A DNA stretch of 64,000 nucleotides. Source: an uncultured bacterium. GTDB taxonomy: Bacteria > Verrucomicrobiota > Lentisphaeria > Victivallales > UBA1829. The stretch lies in the NCBI GenBank assembly GCA_902780135.1, contig CACZEK010000005.1:1-64000 (forward strand). The letters are read 5' to 3'. A program made the position numbers and the translations under genes. Under the pieces are notes generated by a model, which worked only from the letters and a program-made list of their open reading frames with translations, was not told the DNA's origin and did not search any database. Shown one piece after another: positions 34,110 through 47,709 of this stretch. The stretch's first letter is position 1; the number at the start of each line of letters is the position of its first letter.

Positions 34110-36302
34110 ATGTTCTCCCTTAAACACACCCTCCTCGTCCTCTCCGCGCTCGCGCTGTCCGCAACGGCGGTCGAACTCGCGGCCCAGGACCAGCAGCAAC
34201 AGGCCCCGCCCCGTCAGCAGCGCCAGGAACAGCGGCGTCAGCGCCGTCAGGAAGCCGGAGCTGTCCGCCGGGAGGTCATTGACGGGCTTGAGACTCCCCG
34301 CCGGGAACGCCCGCAGGAGCGCCAGGACGGCCGTCAGGAACGGCGCGGCAATCGTCAGGCCCAGATGGCGGCGGCCGGAGCCCAGCCCGCGGCGTCCGCT
34401 ACAGGCGACGTGAAGCCCACCGGCGAATACAAGCCCGTCGACAACCCGGTCTTCAAGCACAAATACACCGCCGACCCGGCGCCCGTCGTGATCGGCGACA
34501 CGCTCTGGCTCATCACCAGCCACGACCACACCGCCGAAAACGGACGTCCGAACGGCAACTACACCATGAAGGACTGGTGCCTCTTCTCCACGAAGGACAT
34601 GAAGACCTGGACGGAATGGCCCGCCCCCATCCCCGTTTCCGACTTCAAGTGGGACACCACGCACACCGCCTACGCCGCGCAGATGATCGCCCGCAACGGC
34701 AAATACTACCTCTACACCAGCACCAACGGCGCGGGCATCGGCGTCGCGGTCGCGGACAAGCCGGAAGGTCCCTACAGGGACGCCATCGGCAAGCAGCTCG
34801 TGAGGCCTGAGGACTGCTTCGCCACCACGCACTCCTGGGCGTGCATCGACCCGACCGTCATGATCGACGACGACGGCCAGGCGTACCTCATCTGGGGCAA
34901 CGGACACTGCTACTACGCCAAGCTCAAGGAAAACATGATCGAGCTCGACGGCCCGGTGAAGAGCCTCGACGTCGACTGGAAGCAGTACCGCTTCACCGAA
35001 GGCCCCTGGATCCACAAGTACAACGGCAAATACTACCTCACCTACGCCTCCGGGTTCATGCCCGAGCGCATCGCCTACGCCATGGCGGACAGCATCGAAG
35101 GGCACTTCGAAGCGAAGGGCATCCTCTGCGACGGCAACAAGAACACCAGCACGAACCACCCCGGCATCGCGCAGTTCAACGGCCAGTGGTATTTCTTCTA
35201 CCACGACGGCACGCTCCCCGGCGGCGGCAGCTACAACCGTTCCGTCTGCATCGACAAGCTCGAATACAACCCCGACGGCACCATGAAGCAGATCGTCATG
35301 ACGAAGGAAGGCATCTTCGGCGGCGCGGCTGACGCGGGCAGCGCGAAACCCGCCGAGCCGGTCGAGGTCAAGACCACCGGCAATCCGCTCTTCAAGGACG
35401 TCTGGACCGCCGACCCCGCCGCGCTCGTCGTCGGCGACACGCTGTACCTCTACGCCGGGCACGACGACGCCCACGGACGCGAGATGTTCACGATCAAGGC
35501 GTGGCGCGCCTACTCCACCAAGGACCTCGTGAACTGGAAGTCCTACGGCGACGTCCTCACCTCCACCGACTTCCCGCACGGCCAGAAGAACACCTGCTGG
35601 GCCGCGCAGGTCGTGAAGAAGGGCGACACCTACTACTGGTACGTCACCATCCGCAACGACAAGTACGGCGGACAGTCCATCAACGTCGCCACCTCCGACA
35701 ACCCGGTCGGTCCCTGGAAGACCTACGAAAAGCCCGTGGTCGTCGACGACCTGACCCACGGTTTCATGGGCTGGAACGACATCGACCCGACCTGCCTCAT
35801 CGACGACGACGGCACCGCGTGGCTCTGCTGGGGCAACGGCAACTGCTATCTTGCCAAGCTCAAAGACAACATGCTTGAGCTCGACGGCGAGATCACCGAC
35901 CTGAAGATGCAGAGCTACGAGGAAGGCCCCTGGCTCTACAAGCGCAACGGACTCTACTACTGCATCTACGCCTCCCGCACCTACGGCGACGAGGCGAACC
36001 ACAAGAACCCGCAGGGCAACGAGGTCATCGCCTACGCCACCGCAGAAAAGATCACCGGCCCCTGGACCTACCGCGGACAGGTCACCGGATCCGCGCGCAA
36101 CAGCTTCACCATCCATCCCGCCGTGGTCGATTTCAAGGGACGCACCTTCCTCTTCTACCACAACGCCGCGCTCTCCATCAACGGCGAAGGCGGCGCCCTC
36201 GGACGCCGTGCGGTCTGCGTCGACGAGCTGTTCTTCAACGAGGACGGCACGATCAAGCCCGTCCGCCAGACCGAAGAAGGCATCCGGGAGCCGGTCAAGT
36301 AA
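34110..36302 (+). CDS. Secreted protein with two tandem glycoside hydrolase family 43 domains
   Basis: A 730-residue exported enzyme, probably an arabinofuranosidase or beta-xylosidase. After a signal peptide (to about 26) comes a Gln/Arg/Pro-rich linker (27-105), then two homologous five-bladed propellers. Domain 1 (about 105-405): D122 in YTADPAPV, D247 in CIDPTVMIDDDG, E297 in FTEGPW. Domain 2 (about 420-722): D435 in WTADPAAL, D559 in DIDPTCLIDDDG, E605 in YEEGPW. All six predicted catalytic residues are present, so both may be active. Exact substrates are not visible. A terminator follows. Confidence 0.92.
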   Translation: MFSLKHTLLVLSALALSATAVELAAQDQQQQAPPRQQRQEQRRQRRQEAGAVRREVIDGLETPRRERPQERQDGRQERRGNRQAQMAAAGAQPAASATGDVKPTGEYKPVDNPVFKHKYTADPAPVVIGDTLWLITSHDHTAENGRPNGNYTMKDWCLFSTKDMKTWTEWPAPIPVSDFKWDTTHTAYAAQMIARNGKYYLYTSTNGAGIGVAVADKPEGPYRDAIGKQLVRPEDCFATTHSWACIDPTVMIDDDGQAYLIWGNGHCYYAKLKENMIELDGPVKSLDVDWKQYRFTEGPWIHKYNGKYYLTYASGFMPERIAYAMADSIEGHFEAKGILCDGNKNTSTNHPGIAQFNGQWYFFYHDGTLPGGGSYNRSVCIDKLEYNPDGTMKQIVMTKEGIFGGAADAGSAKPAEPVEVKTTGNPLFKDVWTADPAALVVGDTLYLYAGHDDAHGREMFTIKAWRAYSTKDLVNWKSYGDVLTSTDFPHGQKNTCWAAQVVKKGDTYYWYVTIRNDKYGGQSINVATSDNPVGPWKTYEKPVVVDDLTHGFMGWNDIDPTCLIDDDGTAWLCWGNGNCYLAKLKDNMLELDGEITDLKMQSYEEGPWLYKRNGLYYCIYASRTYGDEANHKNPQGNEVIAYATAEKITGPWTYRGQVTGSARNSFTIHPAVVDFKGRTFLFYHNAALSINGEGGALGRRAVCVDELFFNEDGTIKPVRQTEEGIREPVK

Positions 36303-40057: not shown

Positions 40058-40086
40058 TTGACAAATCGCGTTTGCACGGATATTTT
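40058..40086 (+). promoter_or_regulatory. Sigma-70 promoter for the double PilT gene
   Basis: Consensus TTGACA (40058-40063), 17-bp spacer, TATTTT (40081-40086). Transcription starting near 40093 excludes the in-frame starts at 39887 and 40088 and leaves ATG 40127. Confidence 0.8.
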
Positions 40087-40126
40087 AATGCCGATACAGC
40101 AGCAACAAACAACCGAAGGACTCACG

Positions 40127-42328
40127 ATGAACTCCATCCTGCCGATTCTGCAGTTCGCCGCCGGGGCGCACGTCTCCGACCTCTTCCTTTCCGCCGGGAA
40201 AAAGCCGAATGCGCGCATCCGCGGCGTCGTCGCCCCCATGGGGACGTTCGGCACGGTCGCGGCGGAGTCCATGGACGCGTTCCGCCGGGCGGTCATCGGC
40301 GAACGCGGAGACGCGGCCTATGCGGAGTCCGGGGCGTTCGACGCCTCCTGGCGGCTCCCGGACGGCAGCCGCATCCGCGTGAACTTCTTCCGGACTCTCA
40401 ACGGCCCGGCGGCGGCGGTCCGCCCGATCCTGAACGGCGACGACATCATGACGGCGGACCTGAACCTGCCGGCGCTGCTGGACAAGCTCGCCGAGGCCCC
40501 GCGCGGGCTGATCCTGGTGGCGGGCACCACGGGCTGCGGCAAATCCACCACGCTCGCCGCCATGGTCAACCACATCAACCGCACCGTGCACAAGCACATC
40601 CTCACGCTGGAGGACCCGGTCGAGTTCGTGTATTCCGACCGCGAATCCGTGGTCTCCCAGCGCGAGATCGACACCCACCGCGAGGGCGGGTTCTCCTCCG
40701 CGCTCCGCAGCGCGCTCCGCGAGAACCCGGACGTGATCGTGATCGGCGAAATGCGCGACCCGGAGACCATCGCCACCGCCATCAACGCCGCCCTCACAGG
40801 ACACCTCGTCGTCAGCACCGTCCACACCTCCGGCTCCGTCCAAGCGGTCGAACGCATCATCAACATGTTCCCGGAGGACGGGCGCGAGCAAATCGCAACC
40901 GACCTCGGGGCCGCGCTGAACGGCATCGTGGCGCAGAGGCTGATCCCGTCCTCGGACGGCGGCATGGTCCCCGCCGTCGAGATCCTGCTCGGCACCGCGC
41001 TCGTCCGCAAGCTCGTCGCCGGGCGCGACTACAGGTCGCTGGACGACGCCCTCCGCAGCAACATCGAACAGGGCATGATCCCGTTCAACCGCTCCATCTT
41101 CCGCCTGTACCAGACCGGGAAGATCGCGCTGCCGGACGCCCGGCTCGCCGCCGAGGACCGCGACGAATTCGACCTGCTCGTGAAGGGCATGGAGAGCGGC
41201 GTCGACGCGTTCCGCAGCTACTACGGCTCGAAGCTCGAGGGCGCGACGGACGACACCGTGGTCGACATGCGGACCCTCTTCCTCGCCTCGCTCCAGGTGA
41301 AGGCAAGCGACCTCATCCTGTCCACCGGCGTCCGCCCCACGCTCCGCATCAACGGCGAACTCCGCGAGCTCAACATGCCGGTCCTCGACAACGACGACGT
41401 GCGCCGCCTGCTCTTCAGCGTCATCAACCAGCGCCAGCGCGTCGAGCTGGAGGAGAACCGCGAACTCGACTTCGCGCTGTCCGTCGACTTCGGCAAGGAG
41501 CTGAACATCCCGAACTCGCGCTTCCGCGTGAACGCCTTCTTCCAGCGCGGCACGCTCGGCATGGTCGCCCGCGTCGTGAACGTGAAGATCCCGACGCCCG
41601 AACAGCTCGGACTCCCGGAAGTCGTGTCCGGGCTCTGCTCGAAACGCCAGGGGCTCATCCTCATGACCGGCCCGACCGGAAGCGGCAAGTCCACCACGCT
41701 CGCCTCGCTCCTCGACGTCATCAACCGCACGCGCAACGCCCACATCATCACGATCGAGGACCCGATCGAGTACGTGCACCGCAACATCAATTCGATCGTC
41801 GAGCAGCGCGAACTCCACGCCGACACGCACAGCTTCGCCTCCGCCCTCAAATACGCCCTCCGCGAAGCCCCGGACGTCATCATGGTCGGCGAAATGCGCG
41901 ACACCGAGACCATCTCCGCCGCGCTCACCGCCGCCGAGACCGGGCATCTCGTCTTCGCCACCATCCACACGAACAGCGCGCCGCAGACCGTCGACCGCAT
42001 CGTCGACTCGTTCCCCATGTACCAGCAGAACCAGATCCGCCTCCAGCTCGCGAGCACCATCCTCGCCGTGATCTCGCAGCGCCTCATCCCGAGCATCGAC
42101 GGCTCCAGCCGCCTCGCCGCGTTCGAGATCATGATCGGCACCCCGCCCGTGCAAGCGCTCATCCGCGAGGGCAAGACGCACCAGCTCCAGACCGTGATCG
42201 AGACCAGCCAGAAGGACGGCATGTGCACGCTCCAGCGTTCCATGGAGGACCTCTGCGCCGACGGCCTGATCTCTTACGACGAGGTCAAACGTTTCGCCGC
42301 CGACTACAAGCAGATCGCCGCGCACTGA
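40127..42328 (+). CDS. Twitching-motility-type ATPase with two tandem PilT domains
   Basis: A 733-residue cytoplasmic protein that is two PilT-like secretion ATPases joined end to end. Copy 1 (about 1-350): Walker A GTTGCGKST (133-141), Walker B region ALRENPDVIVIGEMRD, His box GHLVVSTVHT. Copy 2 (about 380-733): VKASDLILSTGVRPTLRING, Walker A GPTGSGKST (515-523), ALREAPDVIMVGEMRD, GHLVFATIHT, and PPVQALIREGKTHQL resembling the PilT AIRNLIRE motif. Both sites look catalytic. Normal PilT has one copy (about 350 residues) and forms hexamers. It would drive pilus retraction or a related motor; no pilus genes are nearby. Confidence 0.92.
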   Translation: MNSILPILQFAAGAHVSDLFLSAGKKPNARIRGVVAPMGTFGTVAAESMDAFRRAVIGERGDAAYAESGAFDASWRLPDGSRIRVNFFRTLNGPAAAVRPILNGDDIMTADLNLPALLDKLAEAPRGLILVAGTTGCGKSTTLAAMVNHINRTVHKHILTLEDPVEFVYSDRESVVSQREIDTHREGGFSSALRSALRENPDVIVIGEMRDPETIATAINAALTGHLVVSTVHTSGSVQAVERIINMFPEDGREQIATDLGAALNGIVAQRLIPSSDGGMVPAVEILLGTALVRKLVAGRDYRSLDDALRSNIEQGMIPFNRSIFRLYQTGKIALPDARLAAEDRDEFDLLVKGMESGVDAFRSYYGSKLEGATDDTVVDMRTLFLASLQVKASDLILSTGVRPTLRINGELRELNMPVLDNDDVRRLLFSVINQRQRVELEENRELDFALSVDFGKELNIPNSRFRVNAFFQRGTLGMVARVVNVKIPTPEQLGLPEVVSGLCSKRQGLILMTGPTGSGKSTTLASLLDVINRTRNAHIITIEDPIEYVHRNINSIVEQRELHADTHSFASALKYALREAPDVIMVGEMRDTETISAALTAAETGHLVFATIHTNSAPQTVDRIVDSFPMYQQNQIRLQLASTILAVISQRLIPSIDGSSRLAAFEIMIGTPPVQALIREGKTHQLQTVIETSQKDGMCTLQRSMEDLCADGLISYDEVKRFAADYKQIAAH

Positions 42329-42843: not shown

Positions 42844-44661
42844 ATGTCCGGTCCGCTTTTCCCCGATTCCTCCATCCCGTCGGGCATCCGCACCGTCTAC
42901 GCTTCGTTCAGCGGCGGCGCGGACAGCCTCGCCCTGCTCGTGCGCCTTTCCGAACTCGCGAAGGATGCGCCGTGGGAACTCCGCGCGGTGCATTTCGAAC
43001 ACGGCATCCGGGGCGCGGAGAGCCTCGCCGACGCGGATTTCTGCCGGACCGTCTGCGACAGGCTCGGCGTTCCGCTCCGGGTCGTCCCGCTCCTTGTCCC
43101 GGACAACATGCGCCCCGGCGAAGGCACGGAGGCCGCCGCCCGCCGTCTCAGACAGGAAGCCTGGCAGGAGATCGTCCGCGAAACGGAAAATCAGCCCGCG
43201 GCGGTCGCCCTGGGACACAACGCCGACGACCGCATCGAATCGCTGTTCCTGCGGCTCATGCGCGGCTCGAACCTCTCCGGGCTGCATGCGCTCCACGCCG
43301 TCCGAGAATTCAACGGCGTCACCTGGCTCCGGCCCCTGCTGGAGGTCCCGCGCGCCGGGATCGAAGCCTGGCTCGCCGAACGCGGCATCCATGCGTTCCG
43401 CACCGATTTCACCAATCTGCAAAACGACTACGACCGCAACAAACTCCGCAACGCCGTCCTGCCTGTTCTCTACCGCGAATTCCCGCGCGCCCGCGCCGGG
43501 ATCCTGACCGCGCTCCATGCCATTGCCGACGATGCGGCGGCGCTCGACGATGCCGCGGAGGAGGCGTTCCGCCAGGCAGTCCGTCCCGGCGGTCTGGACC
43601 TGAACGAACTGAAAAAGCTTCCGCCCGCGCTTCTGCCACGCGTCCTGCGGCTCTGGCTCGGCGGACAGATCCCCGACCGCCATTTCATCGAACGCCTGCG
43701 CGATCTGCTCGACGCCCCGGACCGCCATGCCGCATCGGGGCAAATCCCCGTCGACGGCGGACAGATATTCCTGTGGAGCAACGGATTGCTGCAAAAGGAA
43801 GTCGCCGCGAAAAACGAATCCGCCGGTCCGGTCGTCTGGGACTACCGCGTTGTTCCTGCCATCCGTTTCGGCAAGACCGTCCTGCGGTTCCGCGAGGAGG
43901 TCTCCGGCGGCGGAATGCCGTCCGGCGCGGATGCGGTTCTCTTTGATGCTGAGACGTTTCCGGATAAGCTTCTTCTCGCGGCACGGAAGTCCGGCGACGA
44001 GCTGACGCCCTTCGGCGCGGAGTATTCCGTTTCGCTCAAGAAACTCTTTACCGACGCCCATGTCTCCGCCGAAGAACAGCCCCTGCGTCCCGTGGTGCGG
44101 AATGCTGATGAACCGGCGGAAATCCTTTGGGTCCCCGGCGTCCGGCGGTCCGCGTCGTATCCGGTCGACCCGTCAAAGCAGTTCAAGGGACTGCTGTTTT
44201 CTTCGGAACCCCTTGTGGATGTGACGGCTGCGGTGATCGGCGGCGCGGACGGACGCATCCTGGTGTGTTCGCGTCCGGCGGGCAAGCACATGGCGGGGAA
44301 ATGGGAGTTTCCCGGCGGCAAGATCGAACCGGGCGAAACGCCGGAGGACTGCATCCGCCGGGAGATCCGCGAGGAACTCGGCATGGAGATCGCAGTCGGA
44401 CCGGTCCTGACGGTCATGGAACACGATTACGGCGTCAAATATGTCCGCGTTACTTTTTTTCTGGCGGTCTCGGACGATTCCCCGTCGGCAAAGGACCGCC
44501 AGGGGTTCCGGTGGGTCACGCCGGAGGAGATTGATTCGGTGGATTTTCTGGACGCCGACCGGCCTGTTTCAGCGGAAATCAAAAAAAAATCGAAAAAAAT
44601 TTCCGGTATATACAATAAGATGCGGCGCGAAAGCGTTATTTGGGTATCGAAGCAACCATAA
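42844..44661 (+). CDS. tilS: tRNA(Ile)-lysidine synthetase fused to a Nudix (MutT-type) hydrolase
   Basis: A 605-residue fusion. The N-terminal part (about 1-430) is TilS, which changes C34 of tRNA-Ile(CAU) to lysidine: PP-loop SFSGGADSLAL (SGGADS at 23-28), HFEHGIRGAESLADADFC, LGHNADDRIESLFLRLMRGS, RPLLEVPRAGIEAWL, and a C-terminal domain to about 440. The last 140 residues are a Nudix hydrolase with AAVIGGADGRILVCSR, WEFPGG and the Nudix box GKIEPGETPEDCIRREIREE (from 492), as in MutT 8-oxo-dGTP cleansing. No stop separates them. The 3' end has A9 and A7 runs. The TAA overlaps the next ATG. Confidence 0.88.
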   Translation: MSGPLFPDSSIPSGIRTVYASFSGGADSLALLVRLSELAKDAPWELRAVHFEHGIRGAESLADADFCRTVCDRLGVPLRVVPLLVPDNMRPGEGTEAAARRLRQEAWQEIVRETENQPAAVALGHNADDRIESLFLRLMRGSNLSGLHALHAVREFNGVTWLRPLLEVPRAGIEAWLAERGIHAFRTDFTNLQNDYDRNKLRNAVLPVLYREFPRARAGILTALHAIADDAAALDDAAEEAFRQAVRPGGLDLNELKKLPPALLPRVLRLWLGGQIPDRHFIERLRDLLDAPDRHAASGQIPVDGGQIFLWSNGLLQKEVAAKNESAGPVVWDYRVVPAIRFGKTVLRFREEVSGGGMPSGADAVLFDAETFPDKLLLAARKSGDELTPFGAEYSVSLKKLFTDAHVSAEEQPLRPVVRNADEPAEILWVPGVRRSASYPVDPSKQFKGLLFSSEPLVDVTAAVIGGADGRILVCSRPAGKHMAGKWEFPGGKIEPGETPEDCIRREIREELGMEIAVGPVLTVMEHDYGVKYVRVTFFLAVSDDSPSAKDRQGFRWVTPEEIDSVDFLDADRPVSAEIKKKSKKISGIYNKMRRESVIWVSKQP

Positions 44662-45963: not shown

Positions 45964-47709
45964 ATGAACGCTACCCGGAAAATCCTGCTTGTCCTGTTTT
46001 GCTCCGCCGTTTCCGCCGCGCTTGCCGCGCAGGAAGCGAACGACGACGCGTCCAAATCCGACGAAAAGCCGAAAACGGAGCAGAACAACCCGTCGCAGCC
46101 CGGCCGCATCCCGATGATCTCGTTCCCCGGCCAGCAGTGGGGGCAGAATCCCTGGACGTTCGGCGGGCAGCGGGCATCCGGCGGCGGGGAGGAGAAAAAG
46201 GACGGGGAAAAAGACGAGAAAACGAATGACGATCCATGGAAGAATTCGCCGTGGAGCCAGCCCGGCGGCGGCTTCGGCGGCGGCTTCGGCGGCACGCCCG
46301 GCGGCGGCAATCCGTGGGAACAGGGCTTCGGCGGCTTCGGCGGCCAGCCCGGCGGCGGTTTCGGCGGCGGTTTCGGAAGCGGCTTCGGCGGCGGTCCCGG
46401 CATGGGCGGCGCCTTCGGCGGCACACCCGGTTTCAACCCCTGGGACGACAGTCCTATGTTCTTTGGAGGCAACAGCTTCTTCGGCATGGACAGCCCCTGG
46501 GAAAACAGAGACAGAAACAATAACAACAGCGATTCCTCCCCGTCCGGCGGCAGAAACAGGCCCGGCGGTCTTTTCGGGTCCGGCAATCCCTGGACCGACA
46601 TCCCGGTCTCTCCCTGGAACTTCGGGTTCGGATCCCCCGGAAACGGCTTCGGCGGCGGAAATCCGTGGGAACAGGGCTTCGGCGGCGCTCCCGGAATAGG
46701 CGGCGGCTTCGGCGGCACGCCCGGTTTCGGAAGCGGATTCGGCGGCGGGTTCGGCGGCACGCCCGGTTTCGGAAGCGGCTTCGGCGGCGCACCCGGCATG
46801 GGCGGCGGCTTCGGCGGCGGTCCCGGAATGGGCGGCGGCTTCGGCGGCGGCCCCGGAATGGGCGGCGGCTTCGGCGGCGGTCCCGGAATGGGCGGCGGCT
46901 TCGGCGGCGGTCCCGGAATGGGCGGCGGCTTCGGCGGCGGTTCCGGAATGGGCGGCGGCTTCGGCGGCGGCCCCGGTTTCGGAGGAGTGCCCGGCATGGG
47001 CGACAATTCCCGCCGCAACATGTCCATGATCGACTCGATCCCGGCGGAAGAGCGCGAACGCCTCATGAATCTCATGCGGACCGATTACGAAGCGTTCCGC
47101 AAGGAGCTTCGCGAACTCGTCTCCGGCCAGCAGGAAAACGAATACAAGGCGGCAATGGAGCTTCGGGAAAAATACCTCAAAGCCACCGGCAACGCCGAAA
47201 AGGACAAGATCAAATCCGAACTCCGCGAGCTCATCGGCGAGCGGTTCAAGACCTACAACAAGTCCGCGGAACGCCAGATCGCGGAGACGGAAGACGTCAT
47301 CGCATCCGCGCAGGAACGTCTCGCCATCCTCAAAAAACAGCATGAAGAGCGCGTGAAAAACGCCGACATCTTCATCGACTCCACCATCGCCGACTACCTG
47401 AACCCCGACAAGGCGCCCACCTATGAAGACGCCCTGCGCAAGCAGAACGAACAGAGCGCCCGCAGCAGACTCCCCGACCTCGACAACAACCGTCAGGGCG
47501 GCAGAGGCGGCAGCGGACAGCATCGCGGACAGGGCAGCGGACAGCGCGGCGACCAGCATCGCGGCGGCCAGGGCGGCGGGTTCGGCGCGCCCGGTTTCGG
47601 CGGCGCGCCCGGGTTCGGAGGGGTTCCCGGCGCACCCGGTTTCGGAGGCGCGCCCGGCGGGTTCGGCGCACCGCCCTCGATCCCGCAGAATTCCTCCCCG
47701 ATCAAATGA
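45964..47709 (+). CDS. Secreted Gly-rich protein with a C-terminal helical domain
   Basis: A 581-residue exported protein. Residues 1-22 are a signal peptide (ILLVLFCSAVSAALAA). From about 70 to 345 it is made of GGGFGGGPGMG, FGSGFGGTPG and NPWEQGFGG units, likely flexible and unfolded. A non-repetitive helical domain (about 350-500; LRELVSGQQENEYKAAMELREKYLKA, ETEDVIASAQERLAILKKQHEERV) resembles a long coiled coil, followed by a second Gly/Gln-rich tail. It is the third gene of the ECF sigma-anti-sigma unit and may be the envelope component that unit controls. Function is unknown. Confidence 0.82.
   Translation: MNATRKILLVLFCSAVSAALAAQEANDDASKSDEKPKTEQNNPSQPGRIPMISFPGQQWGQNPWTFGGQRASGGGEEKKDGEKDEKTNDDPWKNSPWSQPGGGFGGGFGGTPGGGNPWEQGFGGFGGQPGGGFGGGFGSGFGGGPGMGGAFGGTPGFNPWDDSPMFFGGNSFFGMDSPWENRDRNNNNSDSSPSGGRNRPGGLFGSGNPWTDIPVSPWNFGFGSPGNGFGGGNPWEQGFGGAPGIGGGFGGTPGFGSGFGGGFGGTPGFGSGFGGAPGMGGGFGGGPGMGGGFGGGPGMGGGFGGGPGMGGGFGGGPGMGGGFGGGSGMGGGFGGGPGFGGVPGMGDNSRRNMSMIDSIPAEERERLMNLMRTDYEAFRKELRELVSGQQENEYKAAMELREKYLKATGNAEKDKIKSELRELIGERFKTYNKSAERQIAETEDVIASAQERLAILKKQHEERVKNADIFIDSTIADYLNPDKAPTYEDALRKQNEQSARSRLPDLDNNRQGGRGGSGQHRGQGSGQRGDQHRGGQGGGFGAPGFGGAPGFGGVPGAPGFGGAPGGFGAPPSIPQNSSPIK
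46798..46977 (+). repeat. Six 30-bp tandem repeats in the Gly-rich gene
   Basis: Units of 30 bp beginning atgggcggcggcttcggcgg start at 46798, 46828, 46858, 46888, 46918 and 46948 and encode MGGGFGGGPG (one copy has S for P). Near-identical DNA makes slippage or recombination likely. Confidence 0.92.

Follow-up and report, generated by a model that had tools for sequence, protein, structure and literature searches.

The fused open reading frame and its two ATPase halves

The window analysed here comprises 64,000 nucleotides of the contig CACZEK010000005.1 (positions 1 to 64,000) from an uncultured bacterium of the Victivallales, whose genome is a 2.84 Mb draft. At 40127-42328 on the forward strand it carries a single uninterrupted open reading frame (ORF) without internal stops, in which two PilT-family ATPases follow each other. 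A preliminary description made from the sequence alone had proposed two complete PilT ATPases in one polypeptide, and this was borne out: against a curated cut-off of 319.1 bits for the NCBIfam profile TIGR01420 (pilT_fam), the halves of the 733-amino-acid frame scored 348 and 446 bits, respectively. Moreover, the Pfam domain T2SSE was matched twice in the fused ORF, and each half matched PilT and PilU chains in PDB searches. Walker A, Asp box, Walker B and His box were present in both halves as had been described. The features of the locus are listed below in window coordinates.

40127-42328, + strand: fused PilU-PilT ORF, 733 amino acids, ATG to TGA (ORF translation, profile matches, frame kept in relatives)
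40136-41161, + strand: half 1, PilU-like ATPase core, residues 4-345 (TIGR01420, 348 bits; placed with PilU in the tree)
40523-40549, + strand: half 1 Walker A GTTGCGKST, residues 133-141
40601-40627, + strand: half 1 Asp box LTLEDPVEF, residues 159-167
40730-40759, + strand: half 1 Walker B DVIVIGEMRD, residues 202-211
40796-40828, + strand: half 1 His box TGHLVVSTVHT, residues 224-234
41186-41215, + strand: half 1 conserved PilU-type tail GMESGVDAFR, residues 354-363 (column conservation in 76 fusions; also in unfused relatives)
41198-41257, + strand: disordered linker between the halves, residues 358-377, predicted local distance difference test (pLDDT) below 50 (AlphaFold2; variable and acidic in the alignment)
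41267-42325, + strand: half 2, PilT-like ATPase, residues 381-733 (TIGR01420, 446 bits; placed with PilT-like genes in the tree)
41669-41695, + strand: half 2 Walker A GPTGSGKST, residues 515-523
41747-41773, + strand: half 2 Asp box ITIEDPIEY, residues 541-549
41873-41902, + strand: half 2 Walker B DVIMVGEMRD, residues 583-592
41939-41971, + strand: half 2 His box TGHLVFATIHT, residues 605-615
42146-42175, + strand: half 2 LIRE-type motif PVQALIREGK, residues 674-683, without counterpart in half 1
40058-40086, + strand: promoter-like TTGACA-17-TATTTT 5' of the ORF (a match to the consensus only; 3 such sites, with 0.3 expected from shuffled sequence)
40115-40119, + strand: ribosome-site-like gaagg, 7 nt 5' of the ATG (read from the sequence)

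In a maximum-likelihood tree of 90 sequences, the first halves formed one clade (support 100/97) and the second halves another (100/99). The first halves, together with unfused genes of a small phylum (Candidatus Omnitrophota, the phylum of L059), joined the PilU clade with a support of 99/90, and of 99 in a second analysis. The second halves joined unfused PilT-like genes of the same phylum (100/93), and were placed outside PilU with PilT-like proteins. The earlier likening of the protein to a PilT-PilU pair in one chain was thus upheld by the tree.

Half 1 has the extended C-terminal tail that distinguishes PilU from PilT. The tail after the GMxxF motif measures 59-70 amino acids in PilU, about 34-45 in PilT and 51-62 in the unfused relatives of half 1, while about 64 residues lie between this motif and the start of half 2 in the fusion. 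The tail contains a conserved GMESG(V/I)D block, of which the unfused relatives already have a GMFTGTDS version, followed by about 20 variable, acidic residues; the spacing between the two cores ranged from 27 to 38 residues among the fusions. Since half 1 keeps the long PilU-type tail, the fusion corresponds almost exactly to an entire PilU with an entire PilT after it, and it therefore links the tail of PilU to the N-terminus of PilT. Furthermore, half 1 lacks the LIRE-type motif, like proteobacterial PilU (LISDLIFKGE-type), while the Arg of this motif is retained in 99% of the half 2 copies. The divergent C-terminal motif noticed earlier in half 1 is real, and PilU ancestry accounts for it better. 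The Cys in its P-loop (GTTGCGKST) is also real, but it proved a poor clue to a division of labour: among the 77 first halves it occurs in only 15, is specific to a lineage, and was rejected as a functional mark.

The P-loop Lys, the Asp-box acids, the Walker B Glu and the His-box His were conserved among the 77 copies, at about 92-100% in the first halves and at 99-100% in the second. Likewise, R81, E160, D161, E164, R195, T221, H230 and L269 (catalytic and interface residues in the numbering of G. metallireducens PilT, for which McCallum et al., PMC6858323, list the interface) were retained in 89-100% of the first and 99-100% of the second halves. The ratio of nonsynonymous to synonymous substitution rates (dN/dS), measured against relatives of 94-95% identity, was 0.11-0.14 in the first half and 0.06-0.08 in the second. 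Judging from the catalytic motifs kept across these copies, both halves are apparently active ATPases, as had been supposed. A degenerate relative of the fusion in the same class (L176:1998-4085, genome G001) has Arg in place of the half 1 P-loop Lys and a decayed Walker B in both halves, and probably lacks ATPase activity.

When the fusion was sought in related genomes, both halves lay in the same single open frame in about 100 of the 149 genomes of the class (counted by hand from the table of results). Three further genomes have a fusion apparently cut by contig ends, and the copy in G001 is the degenerate one. In total, 76 distinct fusion copies were translated directly with standard stop codons. 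The bacteria carrying the fusion are gut and environmental Victivallales and members of their class, and some genomes of the order carry a second copy. The fusion was not found in the 159 genomes of the phylum outside the class (phylum search, among the matches listed, best first), and it did not turn up in 14 genomes of the L059 phylum, nor in 199 genomes of the phylum of L064 (Planctomycetota) with G430 and G492 set aside. Open-frame values from the search are unreliable when taken alone: the planctomycete locus of G519 gave 723 despite an in-frame TAA that parts its two genes, and G430 and G492 gave similar values.

Pilus genes and neighbourhood of the fusion

Pilus genes were also sought elsewhere in the genome, and PilB, PilC and pilin signals were found. 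PilB-type ATPases, a canonical PilT (L177) and PilC are clustered on C11, and pilin-type N-methylation signals are present. A third PilT-family gene of the genome (C16, L178) sits on a long branch as sister to the first-half group. Secretin domains were matched 13 times, 12 of them over the cut-off, in the 2.8 Mb genome G000, which is a seemingly large number.

The fusion gene appears to stand alone. Upstream of it lies argH in the opposite direction, and downstream a thioredoxin gene with its own promoter-like site. A conserved operon partner was rejected, as none recurred beyond the same genus across 15 neighbourhoods. The surroundings of the second fusion copies in G111, G127 and G131 tie the fusion most clearly to a pilus or secretion ATPase. 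In G111, of the same order, an ORF of 1187 amino acids just 5' of the second copy (L253:409-3972) has a Ser/Thr protein kinase domain and a T2SSE/PilB-type ATPase in one chain; in G127 and G131 a T2SSE/PilB-type ATPase gene lies nearby, upstream of the second copy.

Other genes of the window were noted as well. Directly downstream in the same region, one ORF (42850-44661) combines TilS (tRNA lysidine synthetase) with a NUDIX (MutT-like) domain. A secreted-looking protein with a tandem pair of glycoside hydrolase family 43 domains is encoded at 34110-36302. The gene at 45964-47709, located 3' of a sigma-70-type factor gene, encodes a Gly/Phe/Pro-rich repeat protein (GGGFGG-PGMGG repeats) for which no Pfam match was obtained.

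Possible assembly, role and origin of the fusion

PilT and PilU are described as separate homohexamers (PMC6821130). In two further papers, they are modelled as stacked rings (PMC12607626, PMC13142100), and in these models the tail and C-terminal domain (CTD) of PilU contact the N-terminal domain (NTD) of PilT (PMC13142100, PMC12607626), with each PilU CTD touching two PilT NTDs (PMC13142100). PMC13142100 also reports PilU-like density directly beneath PilT in cryo-electron tomography (cryo-ET), and a required salt bridge between D366 near the C-terminus of PilU and K36 of PilT. One sentence in PMC12607626 gives a contrasting orientation, back-to-back through the C-terminal faces, and the orientation of the rings in published models is not settled.

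In our model of the fusion, AlphaFold2 predicted two complete folds, each with an N-domain and an ATPase domain (mean pLDDT 87.8), and residues 358-377 were disordered; the best Foldseek matches of the model were PilT4 and PilU chains. We somewhat favour the reading that the PilU-like and PilT-like retraction ATPases are fused so that six chains build two stacked rings, as an additional or load-specialised retraction motor. The fusion would most likely power type IV pilus retraction, as its family suggests. Six PilT-like halves would form one ring engaging the PilC platform, and six PilU-like halves a second ring stacked beneath it, with each PilU-like half tethered via its own C-terminal tail to the NTD of a PilT-like half. 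The stoichiometry would be fixed at 1:1 and the recruitment of PilU by PilT would become permanent, and the result would be a double motor of high force. The double ring is preferred because the fusion joins the C-terminal tail of PilU to the N-terminus of PilT, which are in contact in the stacked model. Since a separate canonical PilT lies beside PilB and PilC, the fusion may be an additional or load-specialised motor. The broader proposal, an obligate covalent pilus motor of two rings (or of strict alternation) that is class-wide and holds two ATPase activities at a fixed 1:1, we consider evenly balanced. To our knowledge, such a fixed-1:1 two-ATPase motor architecture has been described for no type IV pilus or secretion ATPase.

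With its two rings and its part in retraction, the stacked motor goes by inference beyond the observed fusion and its ancestry, and several points weigh against it. The predicted template modelling score (pTM) of 0.51 does not fix the relative arrangement of the halves, and the alignment for half 1 had only four rows. Rate covariation between subdomains did not separate one ring from two. Half 1 evolves faster, with a mean identity of 47.5% compared to 58.7% in half 2, and its grouping with PilU could come partly from long branches. The K36-D366 contact was not established as conserved in the fusion, as the column mapping is uncertain. Moreover, the fusion gene is located apart from the pilus genes and has no conserved neighbours in the compared neighbourhoods. 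PilN was not detected in the draft genome, therefore the pilus machine is of a non-textbook make-up or incomplete in the draft.

The preliminary description had held a trimer with fixed alternation to be the necessary outcome of a covalent dimer. In such an assembly, three chains would make up a single ring of six domains, with PilU-like and PilT-like halves in turn (C3, pseudo-C6). This ring is possible but not forced, because a U-to-T fusion with a disordered linker of about 20 residues is no less compatible with six chains in two stacked rings. PilT alone and PilU alone adopt C3 OCOCOC rings (PMC6858323, PMC12607626), which makes a C3 ring of two kinds of subunit conceivable; the linker in the AlphaFold2 model is flexible enough, and the in-ring interface residues are retained in both halves. 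However, the published homohexamers are separate (PMC6821130), the C2 symmetry proposed for PilT on PilC (PMC6858323) would be disallowed by strict alternation in one ring, and the order of the fusion agrees with the stacked model. We regard the alternating ring as rather unlikely.

A higher-order or mixed assembly, in which one half mainly tethers or regulates the other, was judged improbable. For example, the PilT-like halves could form the working ring while the PilU-like halves, with no regular ring of their own, serve as a weakly active brake or as a sensor of load. The faster evolution of half 1, its lack of the LIRE-type motif, the degenerate catalytic motifs of the relative L176 and the weak ATPase activity of PilU alone (PMC13142100) are consistent with such a role, but half 1 retains the Walker A Lys in 99% and the Walker B Glu in 97% of the 77 copies, as well as the His-box His, and is under purifying selection.

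A tandem duplication of one pilT followed by divergence would explain the fold and motifs common to both halves, and PilU itself is an old paralogue of PilT. However, the approximately unbiased (AU) test rejected a tree that unites the two kinds of half in one clade (p-AU 7e-6), and the same clade extended by the unfused relatives gave a p-AU of 0.016. Because the single clade was rejected and each half has its own outside relatives, the fusion, on the evidence of sequence, joins two old paralogues with the PilU-like one in front; the duplication was rejected and is very improbable. The order U-then-T is the reverse of the pilT-pilU order in proteobacterial pairs. In five genomes of the Candidatus Omnitrophota phylum (G308, G313, G314, G317 and G312), the unfused genes lie near each other and share a strand, the half-1 type being the upstream one, and in other genomes of this phylum the two unfused genes are on different contigs. 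The fusion arose once, as the sequences and the tree indicate, in the ancestor of the class or early within it. An assembly or sequencing artefact that joined adjacent genes through a stop or frameshift error, against which the preliminary description had cautioned and for which the adjacent pairs of Verrucomicrobia and Proteobacteria (often with only a stop between) and the planctomycete pair parted by TAA could speak, is practically negligible and was rejected, since the same frame was found in about 100 of 149 genomes and in 76 distinct copies from independent assemblies, with conserved junction and linker length.

Comparison with known systems

Whether PilT and PilU retract the pilus as separate, mixed or stacked rings, and in what ratio, is an open question. 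The class-wide U-to-T fusion provides independent evolutionary evidence that they act in one complex with the PilU tail at the PilT N-terminus. Moreover, as a single-chain protein of fixed stoichiometry, it offers an architecture that is directly solvable and a natural test of motor cooperation. No description of a PilT double-domain protein or PilT-PilU fusion was found in the open-licence papers searched; such proteins may be listed in protein databases without comment.

The AAA+ ATPases p97 and ClpB are two-ring enzymes with two tandem ATPase modules per chain. The tandem modules, and the two stacked rings of the favoured model, are alike, while the ATPase family differs and the double ring of the fusion is a proposal. 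Another parallel is the PilT-PilT protein of Troglogloeales (L032:839-2992, 718 amino acids), which likewise has two PilT-family domains in one ORF. Its second half seemingly lacks part of the N-terminal domain. Neither half groups with the fusion halves in a further tree, and a linker of the same kind is lacking; by its sequence, this protein is an independent event.

Half 1 resembles PilU in its group in the tree, its intact ATPase motifs and its long C-terminal tail, which bears the GMxTF signature. PilU, a PilT-dependent retraction ATPase of type IVa pili, is however made as its own chain from a gene that follows pilT, while here it forms the N-terminal half of a PilT chain. Over its fold, half 2 shares about 47% identity with G. 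metallireducens PilT4, and it has all catalytic motifs and the LIRE-type motif; it belongs to a separate PilT-like clade and not with the canonical PilT (L177) beside PilB and PilC. A further counterpart is the stacked PilT/PilU of V. cholerae, which as described in PMC13142100 rests on AlphaFold, cryo-ET and mutagenesis. There, the contact between the PilU tail and CTD and the PilT NTD is the site that is joined covalently here. The rings of V. cholerae are non-covalent and exchangeable, whereas the fusion would fix their stoichiometry.
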